From the NCBI RefSeq assembly GCF_001652725.1, contig NZ_LWHJ01000022.1, positions 682,001 through 746,000 on the forward strand: a stretch of 64,000 nt of DNA, written 5' to 3'. Source of the stretch: Pedobacter psychrophilus. GTDB lineage: Bacteria > Bacteroidota > Bacteroidia > Sphingobacteriales > Sphingobacteriaceae. The notes under the pieces are model-generated. The model saw nothing but the letters and a program-made list of their open reading frames with translations, searched no databases and had not been told where the DNA came from. Below, piece after piece: positions 7,880 through 40,672 of this stretch (the first letter of the stretch is position 1; each line of letters opens with the position of its first letter). A program made the translations under genes and the position numbers.

Positions 7880-8216
7880 TCGAGATACTCGCCTTCTTCT
7901 ACAAGACATTAACTTTTCAATTGAAAAAATTTTAGATTATACAAAAAACTTAAGTTTCGAAGATTATGAATCTGATTCTAAGACAAAGGACGCTGTAGAA
8001 AGAAATTTTGAGATTATTGGAGAAGCATCTTCTCGTATTCCTGAAGATTTCAAAAATCTTAATCAAAATATAGAATGGAGGATTCTAAAAGATTTTAGAA
8101 ATTTCATTATACACGAATATTTTGGGGTCAATAATCAAATTTTATGGGATACTATTAAATTTAGATTACCAGATTTATACCAGAATATATTAGAACTAAT
8201 TAAAACGATTAAATAG
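7872..8216 (+). CDS. HepT-like RNase toxin (DUF86)
   Basis: This is an all-helical HEPN ribonuclease of the HepT/DUF86 family, the toxin partner of the upstream MNT nucleotidyltransferase. The HEPN catalytic signature R-x4-H-x-Y is present as RNFIIHEY (about residues 76-83), and the Tyr is the residue AMPylated in known HepT proteins. The segment RNFEIIGEASSRIP matches the conserved family motif before it. Its start overlaps the mntA-like stop, so both are made from one transcript. The length of 114 residues is typical. The pair may serve plasmid/phage-type defence or stabilisation; here it sits in the chromosome without other mobile genes. Confidence 0.87.
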   Translation: MSSRDTRLLLQDINFSIEKILDYTKNLSFEDYESDSKTKDAVERNFEIIGEASSRIPEDFKNLNQNIEWRILKDFRNFIIHEYFGVNNQILWDTIKFRLPDLYQNILELIKTIK

Positions 8217-18901: not shown

Positions 18902-21900
18902 TTGTTTTTACCAAAATCAAATACAATCTTTATCTTATTGATATTACTTTCAGCAAAAATTCTATTTGCTGGTGATATAAAATTTAAGCACCTCACTATT
19001 GATAATGGTCTTTCGCAAAATACAGTAACTACTATTTTTCAAGATCATAAAGGTTTAATATGGATAGGCACTTGGGATGGATTGAATAAATATGATGGCT
19101 ATAATTTTGAGATTTATAGAAATGATGGAAGAAATCCAAAAAGTTTAAGCGATAATAAAGTAAACGCAATTTTTGAGGATAAAAAACAAAAACTTTGGGT
19201 TGGGACTACTTCGGGCTTAAATTTATTTGATAGAGATTTAGAAGAATTTAAGTCGTTCCCAAATGAAAGAAATAAATCTTATGCTGTCTCAAGTATTGTA
19301 GAAGATACAAACGGAATTATCTGGTTAGGGACTGATGAAGGTGTTAAATATTTAGATCCTTCAATTGGTAAAATTAAAGATTTAGCTTTTAAAAATTCCC
19401 AAAACGGAGATTCGCGAGTACAATCTCTTTACATAGATAAAGGCAATCTATTATGGATTGGCAAATTTGCTGGTTTATTATTTTATGATATCAGTAAAAG
19501 AAAGTTAGTTTCTCCATATCCAAATTTACAACAAGCTGTTAAAAATTCTTGGATAAGAACTGTAAAATATCAAAAAGATGGTTCTTTTTGGTTAGCTACT
19601 GAAGCAGATGGGGTTTTACATTATAAGAGTAACAAAGAAATTGATTATTATTCAGTAAAAAATGGATTACTGTCTAATACAATAAGAGACATTTTAATTG
19701 TTAATGAACGAGAAATATGGATTGGGACTAAATTTGGATTAAGCATCCTTAATCCTTTTAGTAATGGCATAAAAAATTATACTTATAAAAAAGATGAAGA
19801 TTCACAAATCTCATTAAGTCAAGCTTCCATCCGATCTTTGTTTAAAGATAAAAAAGGAAATATATGGCTAGGTACCTATTCAGGTGGTATTAATCTGGTT
19901 TATAATTTCCAGGAGAATTTTTCTTACAAAGGACATGCAAAAGAAGACGTTTCAAAATTATCAAATAAGGAGGTAAATAGCATATTTGAAGAACCAGATA
20001 AGAATGTTTGGTTGGCAACTGATGGCGGAGGTTTAAATTATTGGAATAGAAAATTAAACACCATTGCAGTCTATAAATACGGAAAAGATCATAGTATTTT
20101 TAATACTGTAAAAACTATTCATCAAGATGCAGAAGATAGGAATATACTGTGGTTAAGTACAGGGGGTGGAGTATTAAAATTTAATAAAAATAGCCACTTA
20201 TTTGAGCCGTTTAATTTTATCAATAATTTTAACCTACCCGCTTTTATACATCAATATGTATTTGAAGATAGTAATTATGGGTTATGGATAGGTACAAATT
20301 TTGGAGGGTTATACTTATTTAAGAATGGGCAAAAAATAAAATTTTATAATAATCAAACTAATAAGAAAGATTATTTAAACTCAAATATAATAACTGCTTT
20401 AAAGAGTGATAAAAATGGTTTATGGATAGGAAATAGGGGAGCAGGATTGAATTATCTTGACTACAAAACAGGTAAAATAACTAGTTATGTTTATAACAAG
20501 AAAAACCCAAGTAGCTTAAGTAGTAATAATATTCTTTGTTTATACAAAGATAGTAAAGGGAGATTATGGATAGGTACTGATGGTGGAGGGCTTAATTATT
20601 ACGACTCAGTATCGAAACAATTTTTAACCTTAAATAAAAGTAATGGATTGTTTAACAATACCATTAACGCAATAATAGAAGATCAATCAGGAGCTTTATG
20701 GTTAAGTACAAATGGTGGGCTTTTTAAAGTAAAAACTAAAATAACCCCTAATCCTTTAAAATTTGAGGACTTAAAAATTGTTAATTATACTGTAGAAGAT
20801 GGTTTACAAAGTAACCAGTTTTTGTCTAATTCTGTATTTCGTGGATTAGGGAACGAACTTTTTTTTGGAGGTATTAATGGTTTAAGTACGTTTTTCCCAA
20901 ATCAACTTTCTGTTAACAATAATAAGCCAAACATTATATTTACTGAGCTTTCAATATTAGGGAGGTCTGTAACCATTGGAGAAAATAATATTCTAGAAAA
21001 ATCTATTGATGAGACTGAAGAAATAGTTTTACCATACGACAAAGCCTCTTTTACTATTAAATTTTCTTTATTAAATTATGTACATCCCGATAAGAATAAA
21101 TATGCTTTTATACTTGAAGGTTTTGCTAATGATACCTGGCATTATGTAAATGACCAACGCCAGGCAACCTATACCAACCTAAATCCCGGAACTTATACAT
21201 TTAAAGTAAAAGCAGCCAACAATAGTGGTGTCTGGACAGAAAAATCAAGGACATTAATTATTAAGGTTCTTCCGCCATGGTATAAAACTTGGTGGGCTTA
21301 CACCATTTATGCAGTCATTTTCTTACTTCTCTTATACTTATTTTATTCTTACACAAAATATAAAGAACGCCTAAAAAGTAAAATAACTTATGAACAATAC
21401 GTTGCCAAGCAAGAGCGAGAGTTAGCCGAGCAAAAATTAAGCTTCTTTATAAAAATCTCTCATGAGATTAAAACACCTATTACCATGATATTAGCTCCCT
21501 TACAAAAGCTTTTATCAGCACATGAAAATAACCCAGTTTGGTATGATCACTTAAATATTATGAATAAAAGTGGACAGAGATTACTCAATCTGATTGATCA
21601 ATTATTAGATGTTAGAGGCTTTGATGCAGCCCAAACTAATCTTAAAGCAGCAAAAGGTAACATGGTAAGATTTCTGAAAGAAATTGTAGTAATTTCTTCT
21701 AATCTTTCAAAAGAAAAAAATATCGATTTATCTTTTTCCTCTTCTGAAGAAAGTGTAGAAACATGGTTTGATAGGGATAAAATGGAGAAGGTAATTTATA
21801 ATATACTTTCTAATGCTATAAAATATACTCCAGAGTATGGTGAAATAAACGTAAAAGTTGAGAAATTACATTTAGAGCAAACAGTATTAATAAGTATTAC

Positions 21901-23018
21901 TGATAATGGTAGCGGTATTTCTTCAGAAAGGATACCAACCATCTTTACAGCTTTAAAACATGAAGATAGTATGCTTAATAATATATCTGGTACTGGTATA
22001 GGATTAGCTTTTGCTAAAGAGTTAGTAGATCTTCATCATGGCGAAATTAGTGTAGAAAGTACTCCATCTTCTAACGGTGTTAATGGCTTCACTTGTTTTA
22101 AGGTTAAACTTCCATTAGGGAATAGCCACCTACAAAAATCTGAAATTGCCGATAATTATCTTCAAACAGAAAATATTAATAATTATAAAGACTATAAATT
22201 AAATAGGCAAAGAAATTTTGAAGATTTACAAAATAAGATAAAATCAAATCATGGCGTAGAGAAGTTGTCAATGTTGATAGTAGAAGATAATATTGACGTT
22301 CGCAATTTTTTGGTAAATCATTTTAAATCTGAGTTTGAAGTTTACATTGCAGAAAATGGTAGAATTGGATATGAAGAAGCTTTAAAAAATATTCCAGAAG
22401 TTATTATTAGCGATGTAATGATGCCTGAAATGGATGGAGTTGAGTTATGTAAACTTTTAAAAGAAAATATAAATACCAGTCATATCCCTATTGTTTTATT
22501 AACTGCAAGAAGTCCGCTTTTATTTAAACTTCAAGGTTTAGAAAACGGAGCCGATGAATACATATCAAAGCCTTTTAATTTAGACCTATTAGAGGTTAAG
22601 GTATGGAGCCTGATATTGAATCGGCAAAAAATGCAATCAAGGTTTCAAAAACAAGTTTTGTTAGAACCTACAAATACTCTTATTTCTAGTTTTGATGATG
22701 TTTTTATAGAGCGTATAATTAAATACATAGAAGAATATAGCCTTAGAAACTCTTAGTGTGGAGGATATAAGTACCTATGTTGGGATGACTAGGGGGAATC
22801 TTTATAAAAAACTAAAAGCTTTAACAGCAAAAAGTCCGGTAGAGTTTATCAGATACATTCGTTTACAAAGAGCTTCGCAATTGTTACAACAGAAAAAAAT
22901 GTATATTAATGAAGTAGCATATATGGTAGGTTTTCAAGATGTAAATTATTTTAGAAAATGTTTTAAGGAAGAGTTTGGCTTTAACCCAACAGAGTTTGCG
23001 AAACAATTTAATAACTAG
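18902..23018 (+). pseudogene. Hybrid two-component system (HTCS) sensor-regulator, frameshifted before its AraC domain
   Basis: This is a one-protein two-component regulator of the PUL. From a TTG start it has a signal peptide (about 1-23), about 14 Reg_prop beta-propeller repeats (IWIGTWDGL type, to about 670), a Y_Y_Y domain (about 700-790), one TM helix (about 797-820), HisKA with phospho-His854 in SHEIKTPIT, an HATPase (DNGSGIS, GTGIGLAFAKEL) and a receiver domain with Asp1171 in SDVMMPEMDG. This frame stops at 22754-22756, just after the receiver. The missing AraC helix-turn-helix (VEDISTYVGMTRGNLYKKL to EEFGFNPTEFAKQF) continues in the +1 frame, 22731-23018. The ideal joint is IEEN-IALETLSVED, which would need two extra bases in the A-run near 22731-22736. 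So it is a decayed gene, a recoded gene or a sequencing error. If real, sensing and DNA binding are uncoupled. Confidence 0.85.
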
Positions 23019-23150
23019 TAAGCTGGTTATAATTCTTTAATACAAATGACACCATAAAATGATACAATTAACAAGACTGTAAACTCAAAGTCTGGTTAAA
23101 TTTGATAGATTTTAAATCTCCTAATTTTTAATTTACCAATTATTAAACAT

Positions 23151-24035
23151 ATGCGTAATTTACAGAGTTCACTGTTTTTATTTTTTTTTACTTTCCTATT
23201 TTTTAAAGTTACAGCACAAGAAATTACCAAAAATACTTATGTGCCACCTGTTCAAAAACAAAAAAATATTGATAAAATAACCTTAATTCAAGATATTAGG
23301 TACGGTACCATTCCTGCAATTGCTCTTGATTCTACCAGTGATAGAATTCTTGATTTATATTTACCACAAAATGATGCAAGCAAAACATCACTACCTGTTT
23401 TTATTTTTATACATGGTGGCGGATTTACCGGAGGTGATAAAGGATTAACAGATTTTTGTTCTAAAATTACTAAACAAGGCTTTGCAGTAGTTTCTATTAA
23501 TTATCGTTTAACTTTAAAATATAAAAAAGTAAGTGGTGCATCCTGTTCGGGCAATATGTCTAAGGGTTTACCCGCTAACGGATCATTTCACCCAGTATTA
23601 AACGAAGCCATTAATAACGCATCCGAAGATGCCATTTTTGCCTTACAATGGATAAAAGATAATGCCAAAATGTTTGGTTTTAATACAGATAAAATAGCAA
23701 TTAGTGGTGGTTCAGCTGGCGCAATGACAGCCTTGCATGTAGCTTATGTTTCTAAACAAAAAGTATTACCTATAAAGGCAGTTGTAAGCTTATGGGGCGG
23801 TTTAGAAGATGCAAAGGTAATTTCAAAAAATGCACCTCCAATTTTAATTTATCATGGCGATATTGATAATACTATAAATGTAGCTTATGCTTATGCATTA
23901 AAAGAAAGAATGGCTGCGATTGGATCTAAAGACACTCAATTACAGATTTTAAAAGACAAAGGGCATGCACAGTATAATTTAATTGCCAAAGAAAAAATTA
24001 GTGAGATTGTTTTGTTTTTGAACAATGTTTTATAA
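23151..24035 (+). CDS. Exported alpha/beta-hydrolase (carboxylesterase type)
   Basis: This is a secreted serine esterase of 294 residues. A signal peptide (about 1-22, ending VTAQE) is followed by the oxyanion motif FIHGGGFTGGDKG (about residue 86) and the nucleophile in ISGGSAGAMTALH (GxSxG, about residue 186). The acid is probably Asp in YHGDIDNTINV and the His in DKGHAQYNL. The family includes acetyl-xylan and feruloyl esterases; in this PUL it may deacylate the polysaccharide before or after lyase action. It is the first gene after the HTCS, with 132 bases between, and its end overlaps the PL6 gene. Confidence 0.86.
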   Translation: MRNLQSSLFLFFFTFLFFKVTAQEITKNTYVPPVQKQKNIDKITLIQDIRYGTIPAIALDSTSDRILDLYLPQNDASKTSLPVFIFIHGGGFTGGDKGLTDFCSKITKQGFAVVSINYRLTLKYKKVSGASCSGNMSKGLPANGSFHPVLNEAINNASEDAIFALQWIKDNAKMFGFNTDKIAISGGSAGAMTALHVAYVSKQKVLPIKAVVSLWGGLEDAKVISKNAPPILIYHGDIDNTINVAYAYALKERMAAIGSKDTQLQILKDKGHAQYNLIAKEKISEIVLFLNNVL

Positions 24036-25530
24036 TAATACTATGATATTTTTTAAGACTTGCGGCTCTATAGCTCATTGTAAAAGAAATACATTTATTA
24101 AAGGTGTTTTAATTTCTTTCTTACTGTTCAATTCTCAAATTATTTTAGCTAAAGATTATTATGTAGCTAACCTGCCTCAGTTTAATAAAGCAGTAACAAG
24201 TGTAAAAGCTGGCGATCAGATAATTATGGCAGAAGGCCGCTGGGAAAATGTAAAATTGATATTTAAAGCAAACGGAGATAAAAACCAGTTAATACAATTG
24301 AGGGCAGCAATACCAAGTAAAACTATTATTTGTGGCAAATCTTCTCTACAATTATCAGGTAGCTACTTAAAAGTTTCAGACTTGCTTTTTACTTCTGGTG
24401 AGCCAATTGGTAAAAATGCCATAGAGTTTAAAGATGATGGTGGAAATTATGCCTCATATTCGGTTTTAAGCAACTGTGCTATTGTTGATTTTAATAATCC
24501 AGATAAAAAAATAAGGAAACAATGGGTTGATTTATATGGTAGATATAATACGGTTGAATATTGTTATTTTGAAGGGAAAACAGATTTAGGAGTAGTTTTA
24601 AGCGTGGAAATTGATGCCGATAAAGGAGATAAAAATTTCCATAGTATAAACCACAATTACTTCGCAAAAAGACTGCCTTATAATGATAACGGCGGTGAAA
24701 TTATTCGAATTGCCCGTGGAGAAGTGCAAATGTTGAGTTCTAATACTCTAGTTGAAGACAATTATTTTGAGCATTGCGACGGAGAAAATGAAATTATTTC
24801 AGTTAAGTCGAGTGATAATATTATAAGAGGTAATAATTTTTATGAATGTGCTGGTGGTGTTTCTTTAAGGCATGGGGAAAGAAATATAGTTTATGGAAAT
24901 TATTTTCTTGCAAACAATAAAGAAGAATCAAGTGGAGTAAAAATTCATTTTATTGGACATAAAGTTTACAACAATCTTTTTTATAAAGTAGCTGGTAATA
25001 CAGCTTATACAGCTTCAATTGCTTTAATTGCAGGGCATTTAAACCCAACACTTTTACAAAATGAGCCAGTAAAAGATGTGGAAATTGCTAATAATACATT
25101 TGTAAATTGTGCTCTACCCTTCAATTTTGGGACTATTCAAGCTGATAAAGCGCTTGTTGTATTACCAAAACAAATCAATGTATGTAATAATTTAATCTAT
25201 TCTCCAAAGAGTGAAGAATGGAGTACACCGCCTCAGGATATAAGTAAGTTATTTATAATTAATAATCTTGTTGTACTAGAAAGTAAAATATTATTCAATG
25301 ATAAAATAATTTTAAATCCAGTTTTTAATAAGTCTAATGGTTTGTTTAATTTGCCTTATAGCAGGCTTATTGGAAAACTTCCTACATATGTAGAAAAAGA
25401 TATTCTTCAAATACCAAGAAAGCAAGGTTTAATAGGTGCCTTTGAATATCCTGAAAAAATAGAGGAGGTGAAATTGCCAAATGCTGATAATTGCGGTCCT
25501 CAATGGTATAAGCCAAAAACCACTAACTAG
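24025..25530 (+). CDS. Polysaccharide lyase family 6 (chondroitinase B / alginate lyase type)
   Basis: This is a right-handed beta-helix lyase cleaving uronic-acid glycosidic bonds by beta-elimination. Lys261 in ISVKSSDN and Arg282 in SLRHGERN match the catalytic Lys and Arg of Pedobacter heparinus chondroitinase B, with the same 21-residue spacing. HCDGENEIIS, a Ca-binding region in the family, is adjacent. An N-terminal hydrophobic segment ends near ILAKD, so it is exported. The start at 24025 overlaps the esterase stop by 11 bases; ATG 24043 is an alternative that shortens the N-terminus. PL6 includes alginate lyases and dermatan-sulfate lyases; sequence alone does not decide here, and the absence of sulfatases argues against a sulfated substrate. 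Confidence 0.88.
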   Translation: MFYNNTMIFFKTCGSIAHCKRNTFIKGVLISFLLFNSQIILAKDYYVANLPQFNKAVTSVKAGDQIIMAEGRWENVKLIFKANGDKNQLIQLRAAIPSKTIICGKSSLQLSGSYLKVSDLLFTSGEPIGKNAIEFKDDGGNYASYSVLSNCAIVDFNNPDKKIRKQWVDLYGRYNTVEYCYFEGKTDLGVVLSVEIDADKGDKNFHSINHNYFAKRLPYNDNGGEIIRIARGEVQMLSSNTLVEDNYFEHCDGENEIISVKSSDNIIRGNNFYECAGGVSLRHGERNIVYGNYFLANNKEESSGVKIHFIGHKVYNNLFYKVAGNTAYTASIALIAGHLNPTLLQNEPVKDVEIANNTFVNCALPFNFGTIQADKALVVLPKQINVCNNLIYSPKSEEWSTPPQDISKLFIINNLVVLESKILFNDKIILNPVFNKSNGLFNLPYSRLIGKLPTYVEKDILQIPRKQGLIGAFEYPEKIEEVKLPNADNCGPQWYKPKTTN

Positions 25531-25584
25531 CCTAAAATAAATTTGAATCCTAATAAGATAAGTTTCTTATAAATTAAAAATGAA

Positions 25585-27306
25585 ATGAAGAATTATATAT
25601 TTAAACTCTTTGCTCTATTAGCTTTCACATGGCCTGCCTTTGCACAAGCACAAAAAAGTATTTTATTTATAGATAACAAAACAGATAAACTGGTTTATCA
25701 GCCCTATACAAAAAAAGGAGATATTATTCCTGATTTTTCATACAGCGGTTATATGGGTGGAGGTGTTAAAATCAACTTCCCTAAAGTTGTTAAAATCTTA
25801 AGCCCTTTACCTGGTGATAATACCATTAACATACAAACTGCATTAGACAGTATAGGGAAACTTAAAGCTGATGAAAATGGAATAAGGGGTGCTCTCTTGT
25901 TAAGGGCAGGTAAATATAATTTATCTGAAAGTCTCGTGATTAAGAACTCTGGTGTGGCTTTAATAGGCGAAAAAGGAGAAGCTAGAAATACCATTTTAAT
26001 TGCTACCACCGCTAAACAATATACCCTTATAAAAATAGGAGAACAAGAAAGCGCCAAAATGGATAATAAAACCAAGAGGCAAGTTGTTGCAGATTATGTG
26101 CCATCTGGTACAAATAAATTATTGCTTAATGATGCATCCTGCTTTAAAGTGGGTGACGCTATAATAGTTGAAAGACCAAGTACAGCTGAGTGGATATCTT
26201 TTATTGGTATGGATAAACTAGAAGACAACTGGCGACCAATAAGTGAATTAAGTGCAGATCAAGTAGCAGATTATCAAAAAAATGGTAAAGTAAGTGACGA
26301 TAAAAAAAGATATAACACAACAGTTCAATGGGAGCCGGGATCAAAGAATCTGAAATTTGAACGTAAAATTACAGGCATTGATAAAAATGTAATAACTGTT
26401 GATATTCCACTTACTAACGCTTTGCAAAAAGAATTTGGAGGGGGTTTAGTTTATAAATACAAATACAATAAAAGATTAGCTCAGGTTGGCATTGCAAATT
26501 TATCTTTAACCTCTGTATTTAATGTAAATGTTGTAGAAAAAGACAAGGATTTAAATACCTATTTTGCTGATGAAGAACATGGCTGGACTGGTTTAGAATT
26601 TATAAACGCAGAAAATAGCTGGGTTGATAATGTAAAAACGAAGGTATTCTCTTTTGGATTTGTATGCGGTGCTAAAAGTAGGCTTATTACTATACAAAAT
26701 TGTAGTTTTTTAGATCCGGTAAGTATAATAACTGGAGGAAGGCGTTATGCCTATACAATCAGCGGACAACAATGTTTAGTTTATAATTGTTACGCCAGAA
26801 ACGGAAGACATGATTTTGTGATGGGTGCTCAAGTTGCTGGTCCAAATGCTTTTGTAAATAACAAAGCAGAATTATGCCATGCTAATTCAGAACCCCACCA
26901 AAGATGGGCTACAGGAACCCTTTTTGATAATTGCTCACTTTCTGGACCAGATGCAGGTTTTAGCTTATCTAACAGAGGGGCTTTTGGATCAGGACATGGT
27001 TGGGCTGGTGCACAAATGGTTTTATGGAATTGCATTACACCACTTGCTGTTGTAATGAAACCACCTACAGCACAAAATTTTTCTTTTGGTACAGTTGCGT
27101 TAAAAGATAAATGGAGTACTAATTCATCTATTGAAGAACGAGTGATGAAACTGAATAAAATATCTAATAGCAATTTTAAATATAACAGTTTACCAACTGT
27201 TGGAGATGGATTTATTTTTAGTGATGAGAAACATATGGTTCCTAAATCTTTGTATTTACAACAATTAAATGAAAGACTAAAAAGTAATGAGCTGGTAAAA
27301 GACTAA
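25585..27306 (+). CDS. Exported right-handed beta-helix protein, putative lyase
   Basis: A 573-residue exported protein (signal peptide to about FAQAQ, residue 22) whose sequence reads as stacked short strands: GALLLRAGKYNL, VALIGEKGEARNTILIA, IQNCSFLDPVS, LVYNCYARNGRHDFV and NKAELCHANSEPHQRWATG. This is the right-handed parallel beta-helix pattern of pectate-lyase-like enzymes. Its position between PL6 and PL8 genes suggests it also acts on the uronate polysaccharide. I cannot name the family or point to the catalytic residues with confidence; Arg/His in GRHDF and EPHQRW are candidates. Neighbours are on the same strand with a 54-base gap before it. Confidence 0.72.
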   Translation: MKNYIFKLFALLAFTWPAFAQAQKSILFIDNKTDKLVYQPYTKKGDIIPDFSYSGYMGGGVKINFPKVVKILSPLPGDNTINIQTALDSIGKLKADENGIRGALLLRAGKYNLSESLVIKNSGVALIGEKGEARNTILIATTAKQYTLIKIGEQESAKMDNKTKRQVVADYVPSGTNKLLLNDASCFKVGDAIIVERPSTAEWISFIGMDKLEDNWRPISELSADQVADYQKNGKVSDDKKRYNTTVQWEPGSKNLKFERKITGIDKNVITVDIPLTNALQKEFGGGLVYKYKYNKRLAQVGIANLSLTSVFNVNVVEKDKDLNTYFADEEHGWTGLEFINAENSWVDNVKTKVFSFGFVCGAKSRLITIQNCSFLDPVSIITGGRRYAYTISGQQCLVYNCYARNGRHDFVMGAQVAGPNAFVNNKAELCHANSEPHQRWATGTLFDNCSLSGPDAGFSLSNRGAFGSGHGWAGAQMVLWNCITPLAVVMKPPTAQNFSFGTVALKDKWSTNSSIEERVMKLNKISNSNFKYNSLPTVGDGFIFSDEKHMVPKSLYLQQLNERLKSNELVKD

Positions 27307-27474
27307 TTATTTAAAGATTTGTTGTAAAATTATTAATTAACACATTAGACCCTTTTTTGTGATACAATCATCATGATGTTTTGATTTTATGTTTTAGTAA
27401 AATTGGATAATGATTTAAGCTTTTCCCAAAGCTTAAATCATTTAAAAAACCAATTAAACCAAAATTAAATTAAA
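27307..27474. promoter_or_regulatory. Intergenic region upstream of the PL8 gene, with 12-bp perfect hairpin
   Basis: The gap contains a perfect inverted repeat AATGATTTAAGC (27409-27420) / GCTTAAATCATT (27431-27442) with a 10-nt loop, ending 32 bases before the PL8 ATG. It lacks a T tract on either side, so it looks more like a 5'-UTR structure or operator than a terminator. Earlier in the gap, at 27360-27368, lies TGATACAAT, also present at 23060-23068 upstream of the esterase, a possible shared regulatory site. Confidence 0.45.
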
Positions 27475-30400
27475 ATGAAGAAAGCATTACTTTTTCTAAT
27501 GTTACTTTGTAGTACGCGGTATTTAAAAGCTCAAATCACTTTTGATGGCATAACTGTAGTACCAAGTAATTGGACAACTACATCGGGTACAGGGAATTTG
27601 GCGCTAAGTACTACACGCTTTAAGAGCGGTACAAATGCTTTAAAATGGACACCTACAAGCAATCAAACATTAACTGCTAGTAATTTAGGTATAACTACAT
27701 CACAAACTGGTAATGCTAGTACTAGTGGTACTCATTTTTATATTTACACAAACACCAATAGTGCTTCAGATACATTAATAGTGCAATTTTTAGACGGCTC
27801 TGGTGCTGTAAAAAGGACTGGAAATATCGTGTTAAATTTTGTGGGTTGGCGAGAATACCATCGAAACCTGGTTACCGATTATGGCGGTGGAAATGCTTTA
27901 CCTGGCTTTGACCTATCTACAGTTAAATTTATATTTAAGAAAAAGTCTGGCACTACAGGAAGCAGGCAAATTTGGTTAGATCAAATTGATTGGGTGGGCG
28001 ATACGGACAGCCGTTATCCCGGTACTCACATGTTATTAGATAATTCACAATTTCAAATAACATCTTCTTTGGCAGGGGGGCAACCTTTAAGTAGCTGGTT
28101 AAATACACCTGATATTGCACTAATAACCCCAAATTCTACTGAATTATCAGGTATCAATACAATTAAAGGAAGATACAATACTACGTTAACAAATGTTACG
28201 GCAATAGAATTATCGGAAGCAAGAGCCTATTACAAATATTGTGGACCTAGTTTAAGTAGTGGTACACTATATTACACAAGAGGATTATTAAGTGATAGCG
28301 ATCAGGACAGCTTGGTTAAATTTTCTAAATATTGCAACATTTTTGCAAGAAAATACTTTTACAGCAATGCTCAAAGCGATTTAGACACACTAACCTTGTT
28401 TACAAAATACTTAATTGATCAGGGAGTTGCTGAAGGAGGTAGAAACGTAATGGTTACTAATAGCTACACTAATGTAAGGTCATTTAATGATAATTTCCTG
28501 GGAGTAGTGCCTTTGATTACAGATGCTACTGTAAAAGGAGATTTAATTAAAATGTTAAAGTGGTCTAACGAATATAACAAGATATATCGCAATCAGTATC
28601 TAGTTAGAAATAACATGGATTTTATACATCTTAAGTTGGAATATATTATTAAACTGACTTTATTAAGTAATGATAATACAGAAATTGCAAGAGATTTAAA
28701 ATGTATAGACCGATTTATGACACAGGTGATTGAACCTGGAGATGGTGGAAGAGATGGTTTAAAGCCTGATGGTTTAGGTTTTCATCATCAATCTAAGTAT
28801 TTCCACTATATGTATTCTTATGCAACATGGATTGAACATGCGTACAACTTAAGAGCTACACCTTTTAAAATTTCTTTAGAAGCCTACAATTACATGTTAA
28901 AAGCAGTTAAAGTAATGTTTTTGGAACTGAACAAAGGGTTAGTTAGAGCAAATTCTACCTCTGGGAGATTTCCTTTCAACCAATCGTCTGTGGTAAAAGT
29001 TTCTGATTTTAGAAATTTAGTTATAGTTGGTGGGGATATCATAAATCAATCTATTGAACCAGAGGCAGCGTCTCTTTACAACTATTTTTACAAAACAACA
29101 TAGTATACCGGGGTGCCAGTGGTTAATTTAGATGGTTTTCATCAGTTTAATTATGGGCAGTTGGGCATAAAGCGAAGTAAAAACTGGGTTGCCATAGCCA
29201 AAGGTTTAACAAACAAAATGTTTGGGACAGAAATTTATGCAAATGCCAATCGTTACGGAAGATACCAGGGCTATGGAGCACTAGATATACTTTATGAAAC
29301 TTCGGACGCAACAGGCTATATATCTGGTGGAGATGGTTGGGATTGGAATGTAATGCCAGGAACTACTTCTGTGCATCTTTCAGATTATGCCAACTTACGT
29401 CCACCTTCAAATAGTACAAAAGAGGAATATCAAGGTTTAAGTTTTGCAGGAGCATTATCAGCAGGTAAAGATGGTATTTTTGCTATGGATTTTGTTCAGG
29501 ATGCTGGTGGTAGATATACCTCTAATAACTTAACATTTAGAAAATCTATTTTTGCTTTCGATTCTATTTTTGTTTGTTTAGGAAGTAAAATAAATGGTAG
29601 TGGTGGTAATGTGGCTACAAATCTCTTCCAATCTATCCATTCATCAACAAACCCAAGTTTATATAAATAATTCAAATCCGGTTACTTCAAATGGTAACAC
29701 CAATTTACCTACATCAGGTTCTAATTGGATTGTTAACGGACAAACAACAGGCTTTTTTATCCCAACAGGGAATAATCAAGTTCAATTATTTAGAGGTTTA
29801 CAAGCTACGCCAATTAATACCAGTAATACACCAACAAATACCGCATCTGCAAATGCCAGTAAAGCATGGATAAACCATGGCTCAAATCCTAATAATGCAA
29901 CTTATCAATACGTAGTTGTACCAGCTACAACACCCGCTAAAATGCAAGCTTTAGCAGATTCTGTTAATCAAGGTAAAGTTTATGAGGTATTAGCTAATAA
30001 CCTTAAATATCATGCAGTAATATATAAACCTAGTAATACTTCAGCTTATTCTTTTTTTGAAGGCGATTCTGTAATTAAGATTGGATACATAGAAAAAGTA
30101 ACAAAGCCATGCTTAATAATTACCAAAGAGGTAAAAGACACCTTAATTGTTAGAATTACAAATCCTGATTTGAATACTGTTAATGTCTCTGAACCATCGG
30201 TAGATTGGAACGCTGCGCCATCAAATGTGAGTGTAACATTAACCAAAGGATTACGCTTTTTAGAAAGCTCGTCTCCGTTTAGTGGAAATACGGTAAGCTA
30301 TAATAATACTGTAGAAGGTTATAAATTAGACTTTGTTTTAAACCAAGGAAATTATACCCAAGTTAAATTGATTAAAGATATTGTACTATCTGATTTAAAT

Positions 30401-30649
30401 CCAAAAGCTTTACCAAATCTTGAAATTTATCCAAACCCAGCATCAGAACAAGTTATTGTGAATTATTATTCGCCAAAATCTAAAACTGTAGATATTACTT
30501 TGGTTAATTCAATTGGTCAAATTTCTTTAAAATTAAGTCAATTGGCTAAGGTAGGGACCAATCAAATGGTGATAGATACAAAATCATTAAAACCTGGTTT
30601 CTACATTTTAAATGTTGATAATCAAAAAGCAAAACTGATTATTGAATAA
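27475..30649 (+). pseudogene. Polysaccharide lyase family 8 (chondroitin/hyaluronan lyase type) with T9SS tail; nonsense and frameshift
   Basis: This was one ~1,057-codon gene, now in three pieces. The N-terminal ~165 residues after the signal peptide (ends LKAQ) resemble the lyase N-terminal jelly-roll of chondroitin ABC lyases. The alpha/alpha-toroid catalytic domain follows, with His438 and Tyr447 in FHHQSKYFHYMYSY (spacing of nine, as in known PL8 enzymes) and Arg in STSGRFPFN. Then come the beta-sandwich domains (VVNLDGFHQFNYG onward) and a type IX secretion sorting domain (LEIYPNPASEQ to the end). A TAG at 29101-29103 interrupts the frame, which continues in the same phase to a stop at 29668-29670; the rest runs in the +1 frame from about 29640 (joint near NPS-VYINNSNPV) to 30649. 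The intact enzyme would have been a secreted endolyase of this PUL. Confidence 0.85.
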
Positions 30650-30909
30650 TGTTGATAATCATTAAAATGGGGGCTAAATATAAGGGAGAGACATATTTTA
30701 ATACATTAAGCATGTAAATATAATACATTTCTCCCTTACATCCCATATGTAATTCCTCTAATTTTATTGCAACCAATTATATTAATAAGTGTGTAAGTTG
30801 GGCGTTATGCCTCCCCTCAAGTTTAATATAATAATGTAGTAGCCATTCTATAAAAGCGATTGTTGCCACATAAATCTTGTAACCAATTATTTAATTTAAA
30901 AATCATATT
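30650..30909. terminator. Long hairpin after PL8, possible terminator, in a 260-base gap
   Basis: AAGGGAGA (30682-30689) pairs with TCTCCCTT (30730-30737) across a 40-nt AT-rich loop which has weaker internal pairing. It may end the PL8 transcript, though the following sequence is only mildly T-rich. The remainder of the gap, up to the ATG at 30910, presumably holds the promoter of the next gene; no clear box is seen. Confidence 0.4.
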
Positions 30910-32388
30910 ATGAAACAGATTTTACTAAGCACCCTTTTATTTTTTTGTGTTTTTGCCGTATCTGGGCAACAAGCTACCTGGACTATCACAACCGGTAGTA
31001 ATTATAATTGGGTCTATAATTTTGGTACTGAAACAGGAAATGCTGGTAATACTTTTTCTGGTTCTTCTGTATCTTCAATTTCTTCAACATCTACCGCAGG
31101 CTTTTTACCTAAACCCATATCAGGAAATGCAAGGGTTAGTACTGGTTCTACAGGAACTCCAAGTTTTACATTATTAAACAACAGCAAATCAGATAGTCTC
31201 CAATTTAAAGCCTCCAGTGCAGGTACAGTAGGGAAATTTTCTTTGTATAATGCAACAGGAGCTACTGCATTAACAACTATTTTCACAACTGTAAATTTTG
31301 AAAATAATGTAGCAACAAGGGCAGATTGGACTTTAGCATCTGGTTATTCTACTACAACTACTTCTCTTTTTAATAACGGTACTGGAATTGGTGCTTCGGG
31401 TACTACCTCATCACCAGAACTTTTTGCTGTTCTTAAGTTTACCATTAATGCTACCGATGCAACAAAAATGGACCTATCATATAGGATAAAGCCAGATGCA
31501 GGATCTACAATAGCTTATAGTAGTGCTCTTTCTACTCAGTTTAATAGAAGTGCTAATTACGCATTAGAATTAATGTGTAATAATACTTCAACTAGCCAAA
31601 CTTATAAAAGAGGAGGCGTAGATTATACAGTACCTACTCGTAACTATCATTTGTGGGCTAATGGAGTACGTGTAGAAAAAGCCACAGGCGATTTTAATTT
31701 CCCAGCAAATGAACTAGCTATAAGCACTGCAATTAATTCTATGGTAGTTACAGGTAATAATAGTCAAACTAGTTCTGTTGCAAGTAACGATGGCACTCTA
31801 ACATTAAGTAAAATTAGTATGCAATTAGCGATGTCTACTTTACCTGTATCATTAACTGCTTTTAATGCTACAACAGAAAATGGTAATGCACTTATAAAAT
31901 GGCAAACCTTATCAGAACAAAATAATTCTCATTTTGATATTTTAAGATTTACAGATGATCAGCCTCTGGCTGTTAAGATAGGTGAAGTAAAAGGAAATGG
32001 GAATTCTAATGGTGTAATAAACTATAATTTTATAGATAAAAACCCACAAACCGGAGTTAATTATTACCAATTACGCCAAGTAGATTTTGATGGTAAGTCT
32101 TCATTGTCAGAAATTAAAACAGTGAAAATGAGTCTAAAAGATGATGAGTTTGTCCTTTATCAAAATAACGATAAATTTTTAATGGCTAATGTTAATATCA
32201 CTAACTCATCTAATGTTTCATTTACTTTAACTGATATATTGGGGAGAACGATTGATCAATTTAATAAAAAGTTAGAAAGCGGTAATAACACTTTTCAAAT
32301 TGCTAACAATGCTTTAAATAAGGGAGTTTACATTGGTAAATTAGTTGTAAATGGAACCCAACTTGTTAAAAAAATCACAATAAACTAA
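30910..32388 (+). CDS. Secreted protein with type IX secretion sorting domain, unknown function
   Basis: A 492-residue exported protein (signal peptide to VSGQQ, about 20). Residues about 20-310 are Ser/Thr/Asn-rich, low-complexity beta-strand material without a family I recognise. From about 312 the segment LPVSLTAFNATTENGNALI through WQTLSEQNNSHFDIL is the module frequently placed before C-terminal sorting domains in Bacteroidota. The last ~85 residues (SLKDDEFVLYQ to LVKKITIN) look like a type IX (Por) secretion sorting domain. It is probably surface-exposed or released and may bind or cleave the PUL polysaccharide. It precedes the DUF5017-like gene by 12 bases. Confidence 0.7.
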   Translation: MKQILLSTLLFFCVFAVSGQQATWTITTGSNYNWVYNFGTETGNAGNTFSGSSVSSISSTSTAGFLPKPISGNARVSTGSTGTPSFTLLNNSKSDSLQFKASSAGTVGKFSLYNATGATALTTIFTTVNFENNVATRADWTLASGYSTTTTSLFNNGTGIGASGTTSSPELFAVLKFTINATDATKMDLSYRIKPDAGSTIAYSSALSTQFNRSANYALELMCNNTSTSQTYKRGGVDYTVPTRNYHLWANGVRVEKATGDFNFPANELAISTAINSMVVTGNNSQTSSVASNDGTLTLSKISMQLAMSTLPVSLTAFNATTENGNALIKWQTLSEQNNSHFDILRFTDDQPLAVKIGEVKGNGNSNGVINYNFIDKNPQTGVNYYQLRQVDFDGKSSLSEIKTVKMSLKDDEFVLYQNNDKFLMANVNITNSSNVSFTLTDILGRTIDQFNKKLESGNNTFQIANNALNKGVYIGKLVVNGTQLVKKITIN

Positions 32389-32400
32389 AAATTTTAAAAC

Positions 32401-32975
32401 ATGAAATTAGTTGTAATCTTATCAGCTGTCCTGGCTATTGGCTATTTATCTCCTCAAAAAAGAGAAATTAATAACACGCATAATTCTGGAAAAATTAAAA
32501 TTTACCAACAAGACGGTAAACATGAACTCTCTTTTTCATCGAGTGTAAAATATGGAAAGCAAAAAAATCAGATGAGCGTATTAATCTCAAGTGATTTTGA
32601 TGGCAACTATAACGAAGAAAACGTTAGGAAGGCAACTTGGGAAAATGTAGCACCAAAAGTTAAACTATCATCTAATGATATATTTGAAAATTCAGGGCCT
32701 ATAGATGTTTCTGGTTTAGTTAAAAAAGGAAAGCCATTTTATATTGCTTTTAAATATGATGGTGCGGCTCATGAAGATAATCCACAAAGAACCTGGTTTA
32801 TTAAGGATGTAAAAATAGGGGACATGGATATTCAGAAATTAAATTGGTTAACAGTTCCACAAATAATAGTGGAACAGGTTGGTTTGCATCTGCAGTTGGA
32901 GGAGTGGTATTTAGACCCAATGCCAGTAAAATTAAATCTGAAGGATGGGCAATTACCCAAGCCTTAAATTTCTAA
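32401..32975 (+). pseudogene. DUF5017-like PUL protein, C-terminal frameshift
   Basis: A small exported protein whose core (SSDFDGNYNEENVRKATWEN, then GLVKKGKPFYIAFKYDG and NPQRTWFIKDVKI) resembles the DUF5017 family found in Sus-type loci, probably a carbohydrate-binding beta-sandwich. As read, the frame ends at 32967 with an unfamiliar tail (TVPQIIVEQVGLHLQLEEWY). In the -1 frame from about 32862 the sequence reads NNSGTGWFASAVGGVVFRPN and then ends KSEGWAITQALNF at a TAA at 32973-32975, which is the kind of C-terminus expected. One missing A in the run CAAATAAT at about 32860-32866 explains it. The lost tail is about 36 residues, so the fold is probably damaged unless this is a sequencing error. 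Confidence 0.72.
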
Positions 32976-33014: not shown

Positions 33015-34265
33015 ATGATCTCTGGATATAAATATTTTATTATCAGTTTTTTAGTTGTGATTTTACTTTCATTCTCAAATAATGAAAAGGAAATTAATCC
33101 ACCCATTGATCATGTTTTTGATACTGCAGCCATTCAATATAAAGGGATGCTGGAATCATCCAAAAATTTAGCTTTTTATCCCCGAACAACAGATATAGAT
33201 GGCAAACTTAAGTTTGTTCCTATAAGTGATTGGACAGGGGGCTTTTGGCCAGGGAGCTTATGGTATATGTATGAATATACACAAGATAGTTTTTGGAAAA
33301 AAAGCGCAATGAAATGGACAAAGTCTTTAGAAAAAAACCAATTTAATAATACACATCATGATTTAGGTTTTATGATGTATAACAGTTATGGTAATGCCTT
33401 TAAACTTACTAATGACTCTACGCTTATCCCTGTTTTAATTCAGTCTGCAAAATCATTAATTAGCAGATACTCTCCTAAAGTTGAATCTATTAAATCATGG
33501 AAGGAAAGAACCTCTCCAGATGGCAAACAGACTTGGAAATTTCCTGTCATTATTGATAATATGATGAATTTGGAATTATTATTTTTTGCTTCTAAACAAA
33601 CAAAAAATCCTATTTACAGAAACATTGCAATTAAGCATTCCGAAACCGCCATGCGCAATCATGTTAGGCCAGATTATAGTTCGTACCACATGGTAAATTA
33701 TGATGAAAATACGGGTCGGGTTTTAGATCGAAAAACGGTACAAGGGTTTTCTGATAACTCGCTTTGGGCCAGAGGACAGGCTTGGGCAGTTTATGGTTTT
33801 ACTACTGTTTATCGCGAAACTAAGGACCAAAGGTTTTTAGTTACCGCACAAAAAATGGCAAACTTTTATCTTAATAGCCCTAATTTACCAGAAGATAAAA
33901 TTCCATATTGGGATTTTAATGTTGGCCAAGCAGGTTATAAACCCGAATGGAATTTTGACGTTTTAAAATACCAGCCAGTACCCCGTGACGCTTCTGCAGC
34001 TGCAATTATGGCGTCTGCCTTATTAGAATTGAGCACCTATAGTGATGCTAAACTTAAAACTAAATATGTAACCGAAGCAGCAGGCATGTTAGTTAGCTTA
34101 TCTAGTGACAATTATTTAGCTAATCCTGGCACAAATAATCATTTTTTATTAAAGCATAGTGTTGGGAATATGCAAAAGGATTCTGAAGTAAATGTTCCAC
34201 TCATTTATGCAGATTATTATTTTTTAGAAGCAATGTTAAGGTACAATAAAATCACAAAGTTTTAA
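33015..34265 (+). CDS. GH88 unsaturated glucuronyl hydrolase
   Basis: This is an alpha/alpha-barrel hydrolase that removes the 4,5-unsaturated uronic acid left at the non-reducing end by polysaccharide lyases. Family features are WTGGFWPGSLWYMYEY (about 75-90), HHDLGFMMYNSYGNAF with the first catalytic Asp (about 116), PVIIDNMMNLELLFFA with the second Asp (about 178), and SLWARGQAWAVYGF (about 250). At 416 residues it is full length. An N-terminal hydrophobic segment (KYFIISFLVVILLSFS) suggests export to the periplasm. It directly links the PL6 and PL8 genes to degradation of glycosaminoglycan-like or other uronate oligomers. It lies 28 bases before susC. Confidence 0.93.
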   Translation: MISGYKYFIISFLVVILLSFSNNEKEINPPIDHVFDTAAIQYKGMLESSKNLAFYPRTTDIDGKLKFVPISDWTGGFWPGSLWYMYEYTQDSFWKKSAMKWTKSLEKNQFNNTHHDLGFMMYNSYGNAFKLTNDSTLIPVLIQSAKSLISRYSPKVESIKSWKERTSPDGKQTWKFPVIIDNMMNLELLFFASKQTKNPIYRNIAIKHSETAMRNHVRPDYSSYHMVNYDENTGRVLDRKTVQGFSDNSLWARGQAWAVYGFTTVYRETKDQRFLVTAQKMANFYLNSPNLPEDKIPYWDFNVGQAGYKPEWNFDVLKYQPVPRDASAAAIMASALLELSTYSDAKLKTKYVTEAAGMLVSLSSDNYLANPGTNNHFLLKHSVGNMQKDSEVNVPLIYADYYFLEAMLRYNKITKF

Positions 34266-34293
34266 ACCAAAATATAAACCAAAATTATAAATC

Positions 34294-37521: not shown

Positions 37522-39369
37522 ATGAAAAGATATATTTTTATTGCCATATTTGCTATCGTCACATTAGCAACATCTTGTGAAAAATTTTTAGATACAGCCC
37601 CAACTGATTTTTTAGCTCCAGAAACTTATTATACCAACGAAACTCAGCTTACTACTGCACTTATGGCAGTATATTCTGAAATGGGTAATATTAATGAGCA
37701 TACTTATTCCCGATTTTTATCAATAGAAGCTCCTGGATCAAACGATGAAGAGTGGTACAGGTCTTCAACCGCAATAACGACACCTTTATATAATACTGAT
37801 GCGGCTTATAGTAGATATATAGGTTGTTGGCAAACCATATATAGTGGCATTGGCAGAGCAAATGCTTTATTAGAGAATATAGATAAAGCCGAAGGTTCAG
37901 TAGTAGTGAAAAATGCAATAAAAGGTGAAGCAATGTTTATGAGAGCCTATTATTACTTTGTTTTAGTGAGTTATTGGGGTGATGTCCCACTTGTATTAAA
38001 TACAACAAAATCACCTGAAAATACAGATGTAGAACGTACTCCACAGGCTGATATTTATAAATTTATAATTAAAGATATGACTACTGCGGAAGGTTTAGTG
38101 TATGATGTTACTACTTTAGGTAATCCAGGTAGAGTATCAAAAACTACTGCTGAAGGTATATTAGCTAGGGTTTGTTTATATGCCGCTGGAAGATTAAATG
38201 ACGCCACTTATTATCCTCAAGCTAGAGATTGGGCATTAAAATGTATGAAGTCAAATAAGCACTCATTAAATCCAGATTATCGTCAGATTTTTATTAACCA
38301 CAGTGCTGATAGATACGATTTAAACGAAAGCATGTGGGAAGTTGAATTTTTTGGAACTAATACTGGTACATCAAGAGAGTATGAGAGATTTGGATCTACA
38401 ATTGGAGTTATAAATAATGCAACTGATGCTACAGATAATGTAGGTTTTATGCAAGGTACTTACGCATCAACAGGTACTTTGTTTAATTCTTTTAATAGTA
38501 GCGATTTGAGAAGAGATTGGGCGATTGGACCATTTTCTTATACAGCGTCACAAGGGGCAAGGCCAATTATTCCGTATGCTAATACCTTTGTTTGGGGTAG
38601 GCCTATTGCTAAATGGCGTAGAGATTATCAACCTAAACCTCAGGTTAAAAATTTCGGTAATACAAATTGGCCATTATTACGCTATGCAGATGTACTCTTA
38701 ATGTTTGCCGAAGCAGAAAACCAAGTGAACGGTAGTCCAACAACTGATGCCTATGATGCTATAAATATGGTGAGACGAAGAGCTTTAGGTACCGGAAATA
38801 AGGTAGCCACTATAGCTATTACCAACGGAGGTTCTGGATATACTACAGTACCATTAGTGAAAATTTCTTCAGGTTCACTACCTGGGGGAATAAATAATTC
38901 TGCTACTGCATACGCTACTGTATCAGGTGGTAAAGTTACTACCATAACTATTTCTTCTCCAGGTGCATTTTATGGAGCTGTTCCTACAATCACTTTTGAA
39001 GGAACAACAGGAACCGGTGCTACAGCAACAGCTACAATTATTGCAATTAATCCTTCAGATGCAAACCTTACACCTAGTTTAGATAAATTTGCTTTTTTTA
39101 ATGCATTAAAAGACGAAAGATCTAGAGAGTTATGTTTTGAAGGTTTCAGAAAATTGGACTTAGTACGTTGGGGCATTTTCCTTGAAACAATGAAAAATAT
39201 GGAAATTACTGTTAATACATTAGCGCCCGTTGCCGCTATTGGAACCTATCAAGGGCGTGTAGCTACTTCTTTGGCCTATAAAAATGCAACCAGTCGTGAT
39301 GTGCTCTTCCCAATTCCAGCATTAGAATTTACGTTAAATTCTAAACTAACTCAAAATACTGATTGGTAA
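37522..39369 (+). CDS. SusD/RagB family lipoprotein with inserted domain
   Basis: This is the surface lipoprotein lid of the SusC transporter, which captures oligosaccharides. The lipobox ends at ATSC (about residue 19), followed by EKFLDTAPTDFLAPETYYTN and the TPR-containing helical core (AEAENQVNG, DAINMVRRRALG) and the C-terminal RELCFEGFRKLDLVRWG. Between DAINMVRRRALG and FFNALKDERSREL (about residues 423-513) lies an extra segment of two beta-strand repeats (GGSGYTTVPLVKISSG; SPGAFYGAVPTITFEGTTG), which canonical SusD proteins lack. It raises the length to 615. The gene is intact and followed by a strong terminator. Confidence 0.94.
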   Translation: MKRYIFIAIFAIVTLATSCEKFLDTAPTDFLAPETYYTNETQLTTALMAVYSEMGNINEHTYSRFLSIEAPGSNDEEWYRSSTAITTPLYNTDAAYSRYIGCWQTIYSGIGRANALLENIDKAEGSVVVKNAIKGEAMFMRAYYYFVLVSYWGDVPLVLNTTKSPENTDVERTPQADIYKFIIKDMTTAEGLVYDVTTLGNPGRVSKTTAEGILARVCLYAAGRLNDATYYPQARDWALKCMKSNKHSLNPDYRQIFINHSADRYDLNESMWEVEFFGTNTGTSREYERFGSTIGVINNATDATDNVGFMQGTYASTGTLFNSFNSSDLRRDWAIGPFSYTASQGARPIIPYANTFVWGRPIAKWRRDYQPKPQVKNFGNTNWPLLRYADVLLMFAEAENQVNGSPTTDAYDAINMVRRRALGTGNKVATIAITNGGSGYTTVPLVKISSGSLPGGINNSATAYATVSGGKVTTITISSPGAFYGAVPTITFEGTTGTGATATATIIAINPSDANLTPSLDKFAFFNALKDERSRELCFEGFRKLDLVRWGIFLETMKNMEITVNTLAPVAAIGTYQGRVATSLAYKNATSRDVLFPIPALEFTLNSKLTQNTDW

Positions 39370-39508: not shown

Positions 39509-40672
39509 ATGAAACAATCAAAAAAAGCGATTCGGTTAATAATCACCGTACTATTGCCAGCTCTTTGTGTAATTGGTTGCATAAAAAGCAGTGATAAATC
39601 AATTAATAACGCTAATCCACAAAACGCTGATAAAAGTTTATCAATAGCATCTTCTGGCGCATTTGTTCATCCCGGAATATTAAATACAAAGGAGTCATTA
39701 GATTTTATCCGAACAGAAGCAAATAATCCTAATAGTGACAGATTTAGTTGGTATAGTAGCACTTTAGTCGCTTACGTAGATAATAGTAGTATGCCGACTA
39801 GCTTTCCTAGTATAGTTTATGCTAAGGCGGCTGGTACAACCCCTACAGAAATTCAAATAAGAGAAAATGCAATTTTAGCTTATGCTTATGCCTTACGTTG
39901 GGCAAAAACAGGTAGCAGTCAATATGCTACCAATGCGAAGTTTATATTAGATGGCTGGGCAAGTAATTTCCAAAAATATCTTCCAGCATCCGGAACTAGT
40001 GTTAGCCAAGCGTATTTAGAAGCTTCATGGGTGGCGCCAAGCTTTGCCGCAGCTGCCGAAATTATAAAGCATTATACAGTTAATGGAAATACGGCGAACT
40101 GGCCAACAGCCAATCAAGCTCAATTTGTATCATTTTTAAACATTTTGAAAAATAATTATATAAATAAGGTGGTTGGTTCTGGTCATCAACAAAATTGGGC
40201 AATTTCTGCTGGATACGCAAAAATGGCAATTGGAGTGTATTTCGATAACAGAAGTGTTTATGACAGCGGAGTACAAATCATTCAAGACAGTATAGTATCT
40301 GTGATTGATTCTAACGGAAATATGCCTGAACTCTGTTCAAGAGGTGATTGTGGCCATTTTCAATTCTCGCTTACAGGTTTAACTTATGCCGCAGAAATTG
40401 ATAGGATACAGGGAAATAATGAAGTTTTTACCAATAGGACAGAAAGATTAATGAAAGGTTTTACTTTTATGCAACAGGCATTCAAAGATCAAAATCCTTG
40501 TGATAGTTGTAGCAAAGAAAGGGTTTATCCCAGCGTTGAATTAGCTCATCGTTATTATGCCAATGCTACTACTGGGTATTTAAGAGGCTTACAGGATCCT
40601 TATGGCGCAACTATTGACAATACGTTCCTTGGTTTTACAACTTATACACATCGTCTCGTTCCTCTTCAGTAA
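39509..40672 (+). CDS. Alginate-lyase family lipoprotein
   Basis: A 387-residue lipoprotein (lipobox VIGC, Cys24) whose mature part has the helical toroid pattern of the alginate lyase family (Pfam alginate_lyase, PL5/PL38-like): AFVHPGILNTKESLDFIRTE, NAILAYAYALRWAKTG, ASWVAPSFAAAAEIIKHY and HQQNWAISAGYAKMAIGVYF, with Asn/His/Tyr in these blocks as likely active-site residues. The first block is common to many bacterial polysaccharide lyases. It is the last gene of the PUL, after a terminator, and could have its own promoter in the 139-base gap. Substrate may be alginate, hyaluronan-like or another uronate polymer. Confidence 0.8.
   Translation: MKQSKKAIRLIITVLLPALCVIGCIKSSDKSINNANPQNADKSLSIASSGAFVHPGILNTKESLDFIRTEANNPNSDRFSWYSSTLVAYVDNSSMPTSFPSIVYAKAAGTTPTEIQIRENAILAYAYALRWAKTGSSQYATNAKFILDGWASNFQKYLPASGTSVSQAYLEASWVAPSFAAAAEIIKHYTVNGNTANWPTANQAQFVSFLNILKNNYINKVVGSGHQQNWAISAGYAKMAIGVYFDNRSVYDSGVQIIQDSIVSVIDSNGNMPELCSRGDCGHFQFSLTGLTYAAEIDRIQGNNEVFTNRTERLMKGFTFMQQAFKDQNPCDSCSKERVYPSVELAHRYYANATTGYLRGLQDPYGATIDNTFLGFTTYTHRLVPLQ

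Follow-up and report, generated by a model that had tools for sequence, protein, structure and literature searches.

We examined a stretch of 64,000 nucleotides of Pedobacter psychrophilus (C22:682001-746000 of a 4.0-Mb draft genome in 33 contigs; hereafter the window), which carries a polysaccharide utilisation locus (PUL) at 18902-40672 on the plus strand. In gene order, the PUL encodes a hybrid two-component system (HTCS) regulator, an esterase, a PL6 lyase, a protein of 573 amino acids (aa), a PL8 lyase, a gene product that weakly matches the tails of the type IX secretion system (T9SS), a DUF5017 protein, a GH88 hydrolase, SusC, SusD and a PF05426 protein. The reading frames of the HTCS, PL8 (in two places) and DUF5017 genes are interrupted relative to intact homologues, as is characteristic of pseudogenes. 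Judged from sequence, this is very probably a PUL for an acidic glycan in genuine, early decay, a dispensable locus whose genes became pseudogenes fairly recently. In the labels used below, G denotes a genome (G000, P. psychrophilus; G005, Pedobacter glucosidilyticus DSM 23534), C a contig and L a stretch; P. psychrophilus, P. glucosidilyticus and Pelobium manganitolerans (G006) fall into one genus group.

Interrupted genes of the locus

The HTCS gene changes frame at 22733-22746, ahead of the DNA-binding domain. In tblastn searches seven query proteins from relatives all shifted there and none ran through, and the open reading frame (ORF) 18902-22756 closes in a frame foreign to the gene. The propeller, histidine kinase, receiver and AraC-type helix-turn-helix (HTH) domains of an HTCS are all present, with the HTH in another frame, so they no longer form a single chain. 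The closest HTCS, a 1375-aa protein of P. glucosidilyticus, is whole and 74% identical; the stranded HTH part (22758-23019) is 89% identical to the same part of that protein. Because the HTH domain lies out of frame, the regulator should no longer switch the PUL on.

The PL8 gene, whose kinship to the chondroitin-ABC type is clear by sequence, is interrupted twice. At the in-frame TAG (29101-29103) four queries from relatives stop and none runs through; the aligned residue in P. glucosidilyticus is Tyr, so the lesion is a Tyr-to-TAG substitution. At about 29660 the frame changes for three queries with none running through, and the P. glucosidilyticus gene is open across this place (start of L018). 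The Lyase_N, Lyase_catalyt, Lyase_8 and Lyase_8_C domains are all present but are spread over three open stretches. By domain content, a protein cut after residue 542 is without the beta-domains and the T9SS tail; with these lost, the product should be neither folded nor exported.

A survey of 201 genomes of the family at a threshold of E 1e-60 returned 16 matches to the ABC-type PL8 in 12 genomes. The 14 matches outside P. psychrophilus, in 11 genomes, were all uninterrupted (12 with frames no shorter than 1052 aa, the other 2 open up to a contig end), which rules out a conserved split gene for PL8 as far as the contigs reach. Neither of the two ABC-type PL8 genes of P. psychrophilus is whole; their frames (544 and 753 aa) end early inside a contig, the only ones among the 16 to do so.

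In the DUF5017 gene the frame changes between about 32844 and 32850, with one tblastn query shifting and none running through. An intact 202-aa homologue in P. glucosidilyticus matches the first half with residues 52-159 (51% identity) and the second half with residues 162-201 (55%). The preliminary description of this DNA had reported a frame lesion in the HTCS gene, two in PL8 and one in the DUF5017 gene, with SusC, SusD, GH88 and PL6 open. The HTCS and PL8 lesions were borne out, and all four of the latter genes are indeed uninterrupted; the DUF5017 lesion is present as well, slightly upstream of the 32860-32866 originally given. Orthologues carrying the same breaks, which would have spoken against decay according to the same description, were not found: PL8 was uninterrupted in 14/14 matches, to the extent of their contigs, and the closest HTCS was whole.

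On this reading, three frameshifts and one Tyr-to-TAG change have interrupted three genes, and the intact SusC, SusD, GH88, PL6 and esterase genes would be remnants, probably uninduced. We infer that the breaks are in the DNA itself, that induction and growth on the glycan have been lost, and that relaxed selection was the cause; a loss of the use of this glycan is a plausible hypothesis.

Alternatively, the pieces might still work, through programmed recoding or phase variation or as split proteins that have been retained. They do have a coding-type composition, and in the part of PL8 ahead of the TAG the rate of change does not exceed that in P. glucosidilyticus. However, no common motif or slippery run was evident by eye at the four sites, the PL8 gene is unsplit in relatives, and a truncated PL8 product would be without its T9SS tail. 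We regard this explanation as very improbable.

Broken genes across the genome and in relatives

No other lesion was accepted in the window when the whole 64 kb was scanned with codon models and by tblastn. Codon-model candidates at 8210, 18938, 52462 and 56695 looked by eye like ordinary gene boundaries. A tblastn stop site at 34288 in the SusC region, which no query ran through, looks like an overrun of a query N-terminal extension; the scan gave further stop sites in this SusC region.

The rest of the genome was sampled in 65 stretches of 20 kb (16 at or between PUL-type matches, 9 elsewhere and 40 spread along the large contigs, one or two of the last placed to continue earlier ones), which together with the window make 66 stretches and 1.364 Mb, 34% of the genome. 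Sites were detected by a codon-model scan, and the candidates were then checked by reading, Pfam and tblastn. Seventeen broken sites were accepted, 13 within 10 kb of SusC/SusD matches and 4 elsewhere. Coding sequence within this distance amounts to 340 of 1224 kb (28%), leaving 884 kb, so the density is 38 sites per Mb near SusC/SusD and 4.5 per Mb elsewhere, about 8 to 9 times higher (binomial p 4e-5, by distance alone; a CobW-like site was added by hand to the 16 sites first counted). Without the window, 10/13 sites (p 3e-4) or 8/11 genes (p 0.0025) lie near SusC/SusD. Distance and content do not always agree: the CNNM and metallopeptidase-like genes are near by distance but non-PUL by content, and the window HTCS and the second PL8 are far yet belong to PULs. 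The preliminary description had taken the clustering of lesions in this one locus as a sign of decay; the clustering stands, being beyond chance and with no lesion accepted in the rest of the window, but broken genes also occur in other loci.

The tblastn scan of P. psychrophilus gave 13 unbridged sites, shifts and stops together, of which three (L062 5160, L099 6248 and window 34288) were dropped. A looser codon-model list of 113 candidates yielded no further confirmed site. One candidate (L086 2419) was undecided and uncounted, and two (L076 10304 and L099 3407-3503) were not settled.

By these alignments, decay is not confined to the window: the broken genes elsewhere include a second PL8, two SusC genes, a GH88-like and a PL14-like gene (Table). 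The GH88-like gene at C22:144 kb adjoins a sulfatase gene and an intact SusC gene. The PUL at C22:100-125 kb is broken in its first SusC gene and in one of its two PL14-like genes, and has an intact HTCS, GH88 and SusD, a further intact SusC/SusD-type pair and an intact PL8, the third in the genome, which belongs to the Lyase_8_N subtype. Related loci are thus affected as well, although some glycan capacity may remain. Decay is apparently more advanced in the PUL at C28:40-49 kb, where the Pfam match of the SusD-like gene is under the cut-off and the TonB-receptor-like gene has no Pfam match. Since no fewer than 14 SusC genes are full-length and intact (TIGR04056, among the 32 candidates scored), P. 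psychrophilus is not losing its PULs wholesale. On a wider reading, the genome is shedding its uronate and glycosaminoglycan PULs broadly and step by step, with both ABC-type PL8 genes and the GH88-like, PL14-like and two SusC genes at varied depths of decay, and the truncated PL8 of the window, constrained up to its stop, may keep a role such as binding while its second half drifts; we consider this unlikely.

If the breaks were assembly or sequencing errors, the genes would be whole in the organism and the draft would hold small indels. The draft is in 33 contigs, broken genes of non-glycan kinds occur too, and the parts of the HTCS stay conserved on both sides of its break, all of which would fit such errors. 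However, A/T runs near the window frameshifts (within about 60 bases) reach a length of 5 at most, although the window has 254 runs of 6 or more; the preliminary description had put two of the shifts at A-runs, which these lengths contradict. Runs of 6 or more were also absent around the 15 broken sites examined and at the L078 site. Because no such run lies near the frameshifts and one lesion is a substitution, homopolymer error is unlikely. Errors striking at random would not be about 8 times denser in the coding sequence around SusC/SusD, and two genes carry two or three breaks each (the window PL8 and the SusC at C28:41-48 kb). Errors as the general explanation therefore appear quite unlikely.

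Because comparator stretches were picked at SusC matches and the regions covered by homologues are biased towards PUL genes, the following rates compare PUL genes. Unbridged frame changes by tblastn numbered 8 in P. psychrophilus (307 kb with homologues), 2 in P. glucosidilyticus (232 kb, 19 stretches), 7 in G001 (139 kb, 9 stretches; one on a 33% match) and none in G007 (165 kb, 11 stretches). Unbridged stop sites (2, 1 and 5 in G005, G001 and G007) were assumed to be query N-terminal overrun, and codon-model candidates in the three comparator genomes (3, 6 and 2) were judged by eye only. Because G001 and G005 also show unbridged frame changes, PUL gene decay is, on these alignments, found in relatives too, unevenly, and P. 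psychrophilus is not alone. In L136 (G001:C1:1354001-1374000), from another species of the genus, one PUL has three kinds of frame-broken gene, named by reading as SusC, SusD-like and kinase-like.

Rates of change on either side of the breaks

Relative rates were expressed as changes peculiar to P. psychrophilus against changes peculiar to P. glucosidilyticus. With several outgroups, neither gene is accelerated ahead of its break (PL8 10:14, HTCS 32:27). After the PL8 stop the counts are 4:1 and 19:6, together 23:7 (p 0.005; Fisher p 0.012 against the part before the stop), and the short HTH part after the HTCS break gives 1:1. With a single outgroup, the HTCS gives 75:69 before the break and 6:2 in the HTH, and PL8 gives 34:41 and 19:31 before the stop and 5:1 from the stop to the shift; the HTH and the PL8 middle part pooled give 11:3 (p 0.057), and the intact esterase, as a control, 26:25. 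After the shift, the single-outgroup counts for PL8 diverge, so the rate excess after the stop is suggestive only. The PL8 stop may be older than the HTCS break.

Several points weigh against genuine decay. The evidence comes from one draft assembly of one strain. The HTCS has no excess of change before or after its break, and conservation of the HTH part is 89%, so this break must be recent if it is real, or else false. The PL8 excess after the shift depends on the outgroup, being 24:8 with one and 6:10 when the second PL8 of P. psychrophilus itself is used. Candidate sites were judged by eye, with 12 of 32 accepted outside the window and 1 of 2 in five added stretches, and the strict codon-model filter caught only 2 of the 4 window lesions, which makes the site counts lower bounds. 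Proximity to SusC/SusD was judged from matches inside the sampled stretches only. Finally, four broken genes are non-glycan by content, two of them counted as near SusC/SusD; the four are the CobW-like GTPase (L078 14325-15304), the M28 peptidase (L107 1-766), the CNNM/CorC-type protein (L152 3147-4486) and the metallopeptidase-like gene (L055 2648-3833).

A narrower form of the favoured explanation accepts the breaks as real but confines them to this isolate or to its history in the laboratory, so that they would not be a trait of the species. The genome set compared contains one genome per species. In favour of private breaks, the HTCS is without sign of long relaxed selection. On the other side, the second half of PL8 has excess change in one analysis, and another SusC with three breaks suggests a decay longer than the time in culture. 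We see in private breaks a minor but real possibility.

Make-up of the locus and known parallels

A canonical HTCS-controlled SusC/SusD PUL comprises an HTCS, SusC, SusD, lyases, a GH88 enzyme and a T9SS-tailed enzyme. The window PUL has the same parts, with SusC and SusD adjacent, carbohydrate-active enzymes and an HTCS gene, but its regulator and PL8 lyase are interrupted. The best solved-structure matches of the PL6 protein are alginate lyases (E 1.1e-65), and chondroitinase B follows only at E 2.9e-22. The PF05426 protein had no sequence match in the PDB at E 0.01, and Pfam annotation gave no sulfatase among the PUL genes. Because PL6 is alginate-lyase-like, PL8 is of the chondroitin-ABC type and GH88 is a glucuronyl hydrolase, with no sulfatase among the genes, the substrate is, by gene content, an acidic, uronate-containing glycan, which is as far as it can be named.

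The corresponding HTCS-PL8 region of P. glucosidilyticus (L017, L018) has a PL8 79% identical to that of the window, esterase genes (two homologues by the HTCS) and a gene corresponding to the 573-aa one, arranged as in the window. It differs from the window in that its genes are whole, it has two PL8 copies and an extra module in PL8, and its stretch, whose contigs end inside the region, has no PL6-sized ORF.

Comparisons usually score a PUL simply as present or absent. Several related PULs with mappable lesions beside a relative's whole copies make it possible to test in what sequence regulator, transporter and enzymes fail, and PUL counts from domain matches overstate what a strain can eat. 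Bacteroides glycosaminoglycan PULs (PMC9745678) and Flagellimonas alginate loci (PMC12323373) are inferred to have been lost in some lineages and kept in relatives. These cases resemble the present one in being lineage-specific losses of glycan loci; there, gene absence is described, whereas P. psychrophilus keeps its genes with small lesions, so that the loss is seen part-way. A full-text search of a partial collection returned no paper on decaying PULs, as judged by title or opening lines. Since published work already describes glycan loci lost in particular lineages and PUL genes decay in relatives, the event is probably real biology of an ordinary, already known kind, a lineage losing a glycan locus.

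Table. Genes of the window PUL (window positions) and broken genes elsewhere in the P. psychrophilus genome (contig positions)
Feature	Position	Strand	Remarks
HTCS, propeller to receiver	18902..22756	+	Pfam Reg_prop, Y_Y_Y, HisKA, HATPase_c, Response_reg; frame lost ~22733-22746
Stranded AraC-type HTH of HTCS, other frame	22758..23019	+	PF12833, E 1.2e-19
Alpha/beta-hydrolase, BD-FAE-type esterase, intact	23151..24035	+	PF20434
PL6-type lyase, intact	24025..25530	+	PF14592
573-aa protein, intact	25585..27306	+	No Pfam or PDB match; 74% identity to P. glucosidilyticus counterpart in same place
PL8, N-terminal and catalytic helical domains	27475..29103	+	PF09092, PF09093; ends at TAG 29101-29103
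PL8, middle part	29104..29670	+	PF02278, Lyase_8 positions 4-158; second frame break ~29660
PL8, C-terminal part, other frame	29594..30649	+	PF02278 161-253, PF02884 (Lyase_8_C), PF18962 (T9SS sorting tail)
Intact protein, weak T9SS-tail match	30910..32388	+	PF18962, 25.0 bits, under cut-off of 27
DUF5017 protein with frame break	32401..32967	+	PF16409; break between ~32844 and 32850
GH88 unsaturated glucuronyl hydrolase, intact	33015..34265	+	PF07470; PDB 3wiw, E 6e-98
SusC, intact, 1070 aa	34294..37506	+	TIGR04056 positions 2-981
SusD, intact	37522..39369	+	
Alginate-lyase-family protein, intact	39509..40672	+	PF05426
Second ABC-type PL8, broken in Lyase_8 domain	C31:304 kb; L050 13099-16568 (C31:302-306 kb)		Adjoins two sulfatase genes
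GH88-like gene, broken	C22:144 kb; L074 3465-4768		Pfam just under cut-off; eight relatives' proteins break there
PL14-like gene and SusC, both broken	C22:117-119 kb; L049 16487-20000 and L112 1-1032 (C22:117-121 kb)		
Five sites in three genes	C28:41-48 kb; L099 1-9400 (C28:40-49 kb)		SusC with three, SusD-like with one, TonB-receptor-like with one
CobW-like GTPase, broken	C22:455 kb (L078)		Accepted only at second look
M28 peptidase, broken	C31:180 kb		
CNNM/CorC-type protein, broken	C30:59 kb		
Metallopeptidase-like gene, broken	C28:239 kb		Judged from reading alone; Pfam gave no match

The intact gene between PL8 and the DUF5017 gene (30910-32388) is 29% identical over 256 aa to the extra module in the P. 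glucosidilyticus PL8 (L018 3-2021); by this alignment, the two arrangements are related by a gene fusion or fission.

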